Below are positions 29,210-31,504 of a stretch of DNA of 64,000 bases, one piece after another. Origin of the DNA: Chthoniobacter flavus (GTDB lineage: Bacteria > Verrucomicrobiota > Verrucomicrobiia > Chthoniobacterales > Chthoniobacteraceae); NCBI GenBank assembly GCA_945861435.1, contig CAMAUX010000013.1:1-64000 (forward strand). Reading direction: 5' to 3'. Made by a program: the position numbers and the translations under genes. Under the pieces are notes generated by a model. That model had not been told where the DNA came from. It made no database searches and saw only the letters and a list, made by a program, of their open reading frames with translations. Each line of letters opens with the position of its first letter. Position 1 is the stretch's first letter.

Positions 29210-30496
29210 ATGCAACACCCCATCCTATCCCGCAGACGCTTCCTGCAGAACTCCGCTGCCTTCGCAGCGCTTGCCTCCGCGCCCGCCATCCTGCGCGGCG
29301 CGCCCAGTGACAAGATGCTCAAGATCGCCCTCGTGGGCTGTGGCGGACGCGGCTCGGGTGCGGCCAACCAAGCCCTCAGCACCTACCAGCAAGGCCCGAT
29401 CAAACTCGTCGCCATGGCGGACATGTTCGAGGAACGCCTCACCACCTCTCTCAACAACCTCAACGCCAAGCACGCCGACCGCATCGACGTGCCCAAGGAG
29501 CGCCAGTTCCTCGGCTTCGACGGCATCGACAAGGTCCTCGCCACCGACGTCGACGTCGTCCTCCTCACCACCCCTCCCGGATTCCGCCCCGAACATTTCG
29601 AAAAGGTGGTCAAGGCAGGCAAACACGCCTTCTGTGAAAAACCCATCGCCACCGATGCCCCCGGCGTGCGCCGCTTCCTCGCAGCCGCCGCCGAATCAAA
29701 GGCCAAGGGCCTCGGTGTCCAATCCGGTTTCTGCTGGCGTTCCAAGTACGCCGAACGCGAAGTCTACAAGCGAGTGCACGAGGGAATGATCGGCGACGTA
29801 CGCGCCGCCTACGGCACCTACCTCGGCGCCAGCCCCTGGGTGAAGGAGCGCAAACCCGAATGGAACGACCTCGAGTACATGCTCCGCAACTGGATGTACT
29901 ACTGCTGGCTCTCCGGCGACCACATCGTCGAGCAGGCCGTCCACACCGTCGACAAATTGTCGTGGGCCTTCGGCGACGTCGCACCCATCAGCGCCACCGG
30001 CCAGGGCGGCCGCCAGCAGCGCGTCGAAGACCAGTTCGGCCACGTCTACGATCACTTCACCATCGTCTACGAATACCCGAACAGCGCCCGCGGCATCATC
30101 GCCTGCAGACAGCAACAAGGCTGCGCCAACGACGTCTCCGACCACGTCCTCGGCACCAAGGGCTTCGTGCGCCAGACCAGCGGCCGCATGAACGTCATCG
30201 AAGCCGGCTCCGAACGCTGGAAGTTCGACGGCGAAAAGAACGACATGTACCAGACCGAGCACGACGAATTCGTCGCCTCGCTGCGTGCCGGCAAGCCCCT
30301 CAACTTCGCCGACAAAATCGCCCACTCCACCATGCTCGCCATCCTCGGGCGCATGTCCGCCTACACCGGACAAACCATCACCTGGGAGGACGCCTGCAAT
30401 TCCAAGGAAGACCTGCGCCCCCCGATGCCGCTCGATTTCGCGGCCAAGTATCCCACGCCTCCCGTCCCCATCCCGGGCCGCACCAAGTTCATCTAA
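29210..30496 (+). CDS. Gfo/Idh/MocA-family oxidoreductase with twin-arginine-type signal
   Basis: ILSRRRFLQNSAAFAALASAPAILRG; KIALVGCGGRGSGAANQAL; GKHAFCEKPIATD. Confidence 0.92.
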   Translation: MQHPILSRRRFLQNSAAFAALASAPAILRGAPSDKMLKIALVGCGGRGSGAANQALSTYQQGPIKLVAMADMFEERLTTSLNNLNAKHADRIDVPKERQFLGFDGIDKVLATDVDVVLLTTPPGFRPEHFEKVVKAGKHAFCEKPIATDAPGVRRFLAAAAESKAKGLGVQSGFCWRSKYAEREVYKRVHEGMIGDVRAAYGTYLGASPWVKERKPEWNDLEYMLRNWMYYCWLSGDHIVEQAVHTVDKLSWAFGDVAPISATGQGGRQQRVEDQFGHVYDHFTIVYEYPNSARGIIACRQQQGCANDVSDHVLGTKGFVRQTSGRMNVIEAGSERWKFDGEKNDMYQTEHDEFVASLRAGKPLNFADKIAHSTMLAILGRMSAYTGQTITWEDACNSKEDLRPPMPLDFAAKYPTPPVPIPGRTKFI

Positions 30497-30499
30497 GCA

Positions 30500-30516
30500 G
30501 GCGCGCCAAGCGCGCC
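30500..30516. terminator. hairpin directly downstream of the oxidoreductase, possible terminator
   Basis: Perfect inverted repeat GGCGCGC-CAA-GCGCGCC 4 bp after the stop codon; no T tract. Confidence 0.4.
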
Positions 30517-30558
30517 CACAGCAGCACGCAGCAGGCTGCGCCGTCGATGGCGCGCCGC

Positions 30559-30599
30559 CATGGACTTCATGGACTTCATGGACTTCATGGACTTCATGG
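30559..30599 (+). repeat. tandem 9-bp repeat array, unit ATGGACTTC
   Basis: Four exact copies of ATGGACTTC plus a partial unit, read directly. Confidence 0.97.
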
Positions 30600-30672
30600 T
30601 TGCTGTCCGCCCGCACATCGACCGGTTGTCACACCCTCCACGCCCCTGCCCCGGCATCCACTGGCAATTGAA

Positions 30673-30702
30673 CATGTCGTCCATGTCGTCCATGTCGTCC
30701 AT
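30673..30702 (-). repeat. tandem 9-bp repeat array, unit ATGGACGAC on the minus strand (CATGTCGTC on +)
   Basis: Three exact copies of CATGTCGTC plus CAT, in inverted orientation relative to 30559-30599. Confidence 0.97.
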
Positions 30703-30736
30703 CTACGCGCTTCTCCCACTCCACCGCGCTCCCCCC

Positions 30737-31504
30737 ATGAATCCCCCACTACCGCGAATCCTCCTGCGCATCGTCCTCGCCGCCCTCCTCCTTCTCGCCC
30801 CGCACACCCGCGCTACGGAGCCTGAGCGCATCGTCGTCCTCACCTTCGATGACTCCGTCGCCAGCCATGCCACCTTCGTCGCCCCGCTTCTCAAAAAGCT
30901 CGGATTTGGCGCCACCTTCTTCATCACCGAAGGCTTCGAATTCCTCGAAGACAAGGAGCATTACATGACCTGGGCGCAGATCCGCTCACTCCACGATCAG
31001 GGCTTCGAGATCGGCAACCACACCCGCCGCCACACTGGCGTCGGCAAGCAGAAACCCGCGGACCTCGAGGCCGACATCGCCTTCATCGAGGAGCGTTGCG
31101 CAGAACACGGCATCCCGCGCCCCACCAGCTTCTGCTATCCCGGCTACCAAGTCAGCGACACTGCCGTCGAGATCCTCGCGCGCCGCGGCTACCAGTTTGC
31201 ACGGGCCGGCGGAATGCAGCCCTACCTTCCATCCACCGACCATCCCCTGCGCATCCCGCAGATCTTCGACGGCAAGCCCGAGACCAACCTCACCCACTTC
31301 AAGGCCGCAGTCTCACAAGCCGGCGAAGGGCGCATCCTCGTCCTCACCTTCCACGGAGTGCCCGACATCAAGCATCCCTGGGTCAACACAGACCCCGAAA
31401 AGTTCCGTTCCTACATGGATCACCTCAAGGAACAGGGCTGCCGTGTCGTCGCCCTTCGTGACCTTAAGACACTCCTCCAACCAAACGCTGCTCCAGCGAA
31501 GTGA
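30737..31504 (+). CDS. polysaccharide deacetylase family protein, secreted
   Basis: Start MNPPLPRILLRIVLAALLLLAPHTRA; ERIVVLTFDDSVASHATFVAPLLKKLGFGATFFITEGF; IGNHTRRH. Confidence 0.9.
   Translation: MNPPLPRILLRIVLAALLLLAPHTRATEPERIVVLTFDDSVASHATFVAPLLKKLGFGATFFITEGFEFLEDKEHYMTWAQIRSLHDQGFEIGNHTRRHTGVGKQKPADLEADIAFIEERCAEHGIPRPTSFCYPGYQVSDTAVEILARRGYQFARAGGMQPYLPSTDHPLRIPQIFDGKPETNLTHFKAAVSQAGEGRILVLTFHGVPDIKHPWVNTDPEKFRSYMDHLKEQGCRVVALRDLKTLLQPNAAPAK

Follow-up and report, generated by a model that had tools for sequence, protein, structure and literature searches.

Facing 9-bp tandem arrays in a Chthoniobacter flavus genome look like the gene-less form of a possibly selfish genetic element

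Background

The 23S rRNA IVS of Coxiella burnetii is associated with an S23p / 23S_rRNA_IVP protein, and its RNA is excised by RNase III (PMC4990558), a mode of cutting that implies a paired stem. The dispersed family of 9-bp-period arrays described here, met as two facing arrays in a 64,000-nucleotide stretch of a Chthoniobacter flavus genome (hereafter the window), resembles this system through its coding members only: these are small, selfish-looking elements whose gene product, a four-helix-bundle protein, shares the fold family of the IVS protein. Unlike the IVS, the array elements lie between protein genes and not in rRNA, their stems consist of 9-bp tandem units, and their protein carries an extra C-terminal suffix giving a predicted helix 4.

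Avd, the accessory protein of diversity-generating retroelements (DGR), is also a four-helix-bundle protein and belongs to the same broad group. Avd-like domains accompany 62% of DGR reverse transcriptases (PMC8934634). The array family departs from this arrangement in that no reverse transcriptase was found in two possibly incomplete genomes, G364 and G021, despite the presence of the four-helix-bundle suffix gene (TIGR04258, hereafter 4HB-suffix gene).

REPIN-RAYT systems (PMC3116915, PMC3733652) comprise many short non-coding hairpins together with one or a few linked genes, the hairpins having a motif in common with the gene flanks. The same organization was found here, with arrays that are mostly one-armed. 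The array-linked gene, however, encodes a four-helix-bundle protein and not a Y1 tyrosine transposase (PF01797), and the repeats are 9-bp tandem arrays with a free NNN triplet in each unit, whereas REPINs have a fixed 20-40-bp palindrome.

A minisatellite located inside a MITE is reported from Porphyromonas gingivalis (PMC4596501), which likewise ties tandem repeats to an inverted-repeat element. In the present family, the arrays themselves form the inverted arms and other terminal sequence was not found. Fixed terminal inverted repeats, a feature of MITEs and transposons, were absent between copies of the array family; only the 9-bp unit was common to them, and both unit and length varied. 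Intergenic VNTRs, or bacterial minisatellites (PMC6749651), also consist of short head-to-tail units varying in copy number; in the array family such a change was seen at a 4HB-suffix locus (L248/L249), not at the window locus. The family is unlike these VNTRs in that many unlinked sites have a unit in common, the arrays pair as inverted copies and a single gene family is linked to them.

Results

Two facing arrays between protein genes

The window belongs to contig 13 of G000, a draft genome of 5.35 Mb, and harbored two facing period-9 arrays separated by a 73-bp spacer, or loop (30600-30672). The left arm, (ATGGACTTC)x4.6, is a forward tandem array on the + strand (30559-30599). The right arm (30673-30702) reads (ATGGACGAC)x3.3 on the - strand, equivalent to CATGTCGTC x3.3 on the + strand. 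Both arms were detected by TRF at period 9 with 100% matches, and their NNN triplets differed (TTC vs GAC). They were the only perfect period-9 runs of at least 27 bp in the 64 kb; none arose in 50 rounds of shuffling the triplets inside 3-kb blocks, and no comparable perfect run of any other period from 4 to 19 occurred in the window. Allowing up to 2 mismatches, ATGGACNNNATGGAC had 11 matches in the window, a number reached by 0 of 100 shuffles.

The locus lies between a Gfo/Idh/MocA family oxidoreductase gene (29210-30496, + strand) and a polysaccharide deacetylase gene (30737-31504, + strand), the likely start of the latter being placed at a signal-peptide-like N terminus. This copy has no ORF of its own and does not lie in 23S rRNA. 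The ATG at 30560 is array sequence, and the ORF called from this position reads the array as MDFMDF. Folding of the locus as RNA gave 6-7-bp helices with 2-nt internal loops between them (z = -3.8 for the + strand and -6.1 for the - strand). By fold prediction only, GCGCG at 30550-30554 pairs with CGCGC at 30706-30710 and would prolong the stem on its outer side. The initial annotation had described facing 9-bp arrays over about 73 bp, arms able to pair as a long imperfect stem, an intergenic position and spurious ORFs made by gene callers, and each of these descriptions agreed with the analysis.

No Rfam family matched near gathering score in 30300-31000, and no U-tract followed the arms at the window site. 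In deacetylase orthologues from other species (62-67% identity), the array was absent and the upstream regions were wholly different; neither an empty site nor a target duplication was seen at these distant orthologous sites, the only ones compared, where upstream regions were not comparable.

A dispersed array family

The genome-wide census of arrays rests on pattern searches. ATGGACNNN x3 yielded 92 matches at about 28 places in G000, and the reversed-pattern control yielded 0. One search over genome contigs used a unit having a fixed G after GTCCAT, a pattern that also drew many unrelated coding repeats. Two congeners displayed 165 and 122 matches to ATGGACNNN x3 and the third (G002) none, while several genomes of genus g5 had 1 to 30. 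Across most of the order the pattern was scarce or missing, and it was not found in the order's other families in this sample. The 6.8-Mb genome of G002 encoded no TIGR04258 gene either, unlike the other two congeners.

Most arrays in G000 were one-armed, and clear converging pairs were found at 3 of the about 28 sites (the window locus, L151 and L177). Converging as well as diverging pairs were present in G003 and G001. Between array sites, neither the spacers nor the flanks had anything general in common, and the window spacer was present at no other array site examined. The suspicion of a dispersed repeat family, as opposed to a one-off, was borne out by the 92 matches, while the conserved-looking core that the initial annotation had proposed was not recovered; its suggested search of the genome and relatives for this core with facing arrays returned facing arrays in relatives but no common core, and the facing form proved to be that of a minority in G000.

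The same NNN occurred in adjacent units in 80 of 92 cases in G000 (0.37 expected from the genome's NNN usage) and in 56 of 70 in G003 (0.06 expected). Each array has therefore arisen by local amplification of a unit of its own, while ATGGAC is common to all sites. In G000 and G003 together, 51 arrays were classed with a crude gene caller that overcalls genes and scores the window arrays as genic; at least 32 of them were intergenic, though 78-86% of the stretches were called coding, and 14 of these 32 lay between converging genes.

Period 9 was dominant even among non-ATGGAC arrays in both G000 and G003. A second unit, TCGGACNNN x3, was dispersed in G375, G364, G001, G297 and G220; 21 of the 28 genomes tested had none. 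Dispersed TCGGACNNN was not always matched to the unit at the gene, since G418 and G199 had an imperfect form at the gene and no dispersed match.

Common flanks at L152-L154 belonged to a separate REP-like repeat and were rejected as a core of the array family. This repeat, with palindromes ATCCGCTTTGCGGAT and CATGCCTCCGGCATG, adjoins 9-bp arrays at L152:1087-1250, L153:1821-1980 and L154, and a sequence like it was found at L191, in the vicinity of a Y1 (RAYT-like) transposase gene. Near Y1 transposase loci of G000, arrays of quite different 9-bp units (CCACGCCCT, CAATCAGCC, GAGCACCCT and AAGAGGACA) were observed at L191:813-914, L194:2133-2198, L195:166-221 and L196:1353-1396.

Arrays around the four-helix-bundle suffix gene

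One array pair in G000 (C3, at L171) brackets a 4HB-suffix gene, and ATGGAC arrays adjoined this gene in G000, G001, G003, G021 and G025. Loci chosen by array pattern or place alone encoded relatives of the 4HB-suffix protein in G003 and in Phycisphaerales, Chlamydiae and Nitrospirae MAGs, and the array-linked examples came from five phyla. At L133, L118 and L179, the facing arrays fell within the gene, separating its N-terminal part from the suffix. The in-gene array at L133:378-1226 reads as collagen-like Gly-X-Y and has a weak match to Pfam Collagen. Two paralogous gene starts of G000 were preceded by an imperfect facing array without gene (L172:2070-2200) and by the array-flanked 4HB-suffix gene (L171), respectively.

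TIGR04258 was encoded in 208 of the 388 genomes sampled from the phylum, and the loci tested were the best-scoring matches, not selected for arrays. Across 54 oriented loci, period-9 coverage peaked just 5' of the gene, in the helix 3-4 loop and just 3' of the gene, and was about 0-2% of bases outside these places. No such peaks were seen at these loci for periods 5-8 or 10-16. With a relaxed detector, a period-9 array was found in the element zones of 55 of 74 loci vs the control zones of 16 of 65 (Fisher p = 4e-9), and other periods reached at most 12 of 74 in element zones. Random 900-bp stretches of the window contained a period-9 array in 23% of cases. Because control zones contained more coding DNA than element zones, an intergenic effect may account for part of the excess.

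Among 36 genomes of the host's family, 9 had both ATGGAC arrays and TIGR04258, 3 had arrays only, 2 the gene only and 22 neither (Fisher p = 1e-4). Dispersed ATGGAC arrays numbered 3 to 165 where the gene had ATGGAC-type arrays and 0 to 3 where it had another unit. In Bacteroidota, the gene of Prevotella nigrescens NZ_CP082843.1, which was found without array selection, was followed about 40 bp 3' of its stop codon by a palindromic period-9 array (TCCTAGTATCCCTAGGGTTCCTAGGAATACTAGGAACCC), and no array of periods 6-8 or 10-13 lay beside the gene. The record was the only one with a relative in the plasmid collection, where no relative with both flanks was found; the phage search gave no match.

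Several other partners were considered and rejected. ATGGAC arrays were absent near RAYT/Y1 and GxxExxY genes, including within 1.5 kb of all six Y1 loci (PF01797) of G000, and suffix-less four-helix-bundle genes of G000 (L202, L203 and L205) had no arrays. Reverse transcriptase was present in 8 of 10 genomes and not found in G364, which has 14 TIGR04258 matches, or in G021, both possibly incomplete, and was not retained as an obligatory partner. A type I restriction-modification operon as general context was likewise set aside, since sequence comparison recovered it at only three related loci, plus one with a neighbouring specificity subunit. At these three loci (L241, L248 and L249), the 4HB-suffix gene has a putative C-terminal zinc-ribbon-like tail and appears to lie between hsdR-like and hsdM-like genes, a setting that, as read from sequence, looks like such an operon. 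The specificity subunit (Methylase_S) adjoins the 4HB-suffix gene at L207.

Matching arms and 9-bp steps

Units varied between elements (ATGGGACTT, CTGGGACCA, TATAGGACC, AAAGGACCT, TCGGACGGA and others) at a constant period of 9. At 22 two-armed loci, the 5' unit agreed with the reverse complement of the 3' unit at 5.62 of 9 positions within a locus and at 4.22 of 9 between loci; the within-locus value was reached in 0 of 5000 permutations, in which related loci were not fully independent. Two copies in G375 (L223 and L256), 86% identical over 619 bp, had different units, each matched on both arms. Such a change of unit on both arms would point to pairing or conversion between arms and not to independent drift.

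L248 and L249 (94% identical, blastn) differed over about 1.4 kb aligned by a single internal indel, corresponding to one unit of the loop array. This 9-bp step in copy number between close homologues accords with the amplification by slippage suggested at the outset. The TIGR04258 link, the varying units at constant period and the arm match all lie outside the window and were hence missed by the initial annotation.

Fold of the encoded protein

Proteins of the coding members matched TIGR02436 above cut-off and PF05635 just below its cut-off. The nearest solved fold was 2gsc, of the S23/IVP type (probability 1.00, E = 0.025; sequence E = 0.011). No known catalytic domain was detected in the 4HB-suffix protein. 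For the Chlamydiae protein, AlphaFold modeling from only three sequences (mean pLDDT 80) predicted the suffix as a fourth helix, which would place the in-gene arrays in the helix 3-4 loop.

Discussion

The window locus may be an ORF-less ("solo") copy of the dispersed 9-bp-period array family, whose coding members carry the 4HB-suffix gene (TIGR02436 + TIGR04258), with spread through pairing and help from the protein; we hold this reading with moderate confidence, at about even chances. With facing arms and no gene, the window copy is not itself a 4HB-suffix array element and can only be a solo relative, presumably derived from a gene-bearing element. The family is dispersed at period 9 and placed around the gene, its arms match within an element, its copy number changes by a single unit and its NNN is homogenized locally.

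In the mechanism that we propose, inverted 9-bp arrays would make hairpins at the 5' end, the 3' end and the helix 3-4 loop of the gene. The arms would pair when single-stranded, as DNA or RNA, and pairing between them would keep both alike, steps that have indirect support, while slippage would shift copy number in 9-bp steps. The 4HB-suffix protein may recognize the paired units and, by analogy with RAYT for REPINs, may help solo hairpins to spread in trans. Against this explanation stand the absence of an empty site or target duplication, the one-armed state of most G000 arrays, the differing NNN of the window arms, three genomes with arrays in which no gene was detected and a protein without known catalytic domain.

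The main rival, which we judge unlikely though the strongest of those considered, is that the arrays are plain minisatellites, i.e., the outcome of a lineage-wide tendency of intergenic DNA and permissive linkers to 9-bp slippage, with no partner protein, the 4HB-suffix genes being merely hospitable. Local homogenization of units, the single 9-bp indel between L248 and L249, the one-armed state of most arrays and the lead that period 9 has in G000 and G003 even when the unit is not ATGGAC are all consistent with it. Since period-9 arrays of other units occur away from the gene in G000, a general tendency to 9-bp repeats contributes. Slippage nevertheless leaves unexplained the recurrence of one 6-mer, with NNN free, at about 28 sites that are not linked, the three-fold enrichment at 4HB-suffix loci over controls with no other period enriched, and opposite arms with a matching unit.

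A host functional RNA or DNA hairpin selected at gene ends, as terminator, 3'-end stabilizer or protein-binding platform, is improbable. The stem is stable and the arrays are largely intergenic (at least 32 of 51 by the crude gene caller, among which 14 are flanked by genes that converge), as such a function would have it, but one-armed arrays cannot form a stem, and the window site has neither an Rfam family nor a U-tract after the arms. The one orthologous gene compared, that of the deacetylase, occurs without the array, and unit and site content vary between congeners, G002 of the same genus having none.

Movement of the arrays as non-autonomous copies, driven by a conventional transposase that the genome encodes (RAYT/Y1 or IS), is more improbable still: Y1 transposases are present in G000 and the REP-like palindromic repeat adjoins arrays at L152-L154, but none of the 6 Y1 loci is near an ATGGAC array, and the array ends vary by site with no common terminal sequence beyond the unit. 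Although the reading frame from 30560 runs on without a stop into the deacetylase, a Met-Asp-Phe coding repeat in a real protein can practically be dismissed: the orthologues begin at the signal peptide with the repeat absent, and the arrays are open in all frames and lie between genes in both orientations.

Going back to the solo copy of a 4HB-suffix array family, the window locus looks like the gene-less form of a possibly selfish genetic element. The broader proposal is that several phyla harbor selfish or mobile DNA of a new kind, in which 9-bp-unit hairpins would be maintained and spread by a small four-helix-bundle protein in the absence of any transposase, recombinase or reverse transcriptase, their units drifting freely while the arms match; this is speculative, and we rate it as rather unlikely. 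The literature searched, with few subscription journals and no bioRxiv, held no description of the family, which is weak evidence of novelty. What novelty there is would reside in the family and its gene, the window copy being a small solo member.

Conclusions

For the 4HB-suffix proteins, which have no assigned function and which 208 of the 388 genomes sampled from the phylum encode, the link to arrays provides the first testable idea of a target. If these proteins mobilize the arrays, the system would resemble that of REPINs but involve no known transposase. That the arms match although the sequence of the unit is free would offer a natural test of the concerted evolution of inverted repeats.
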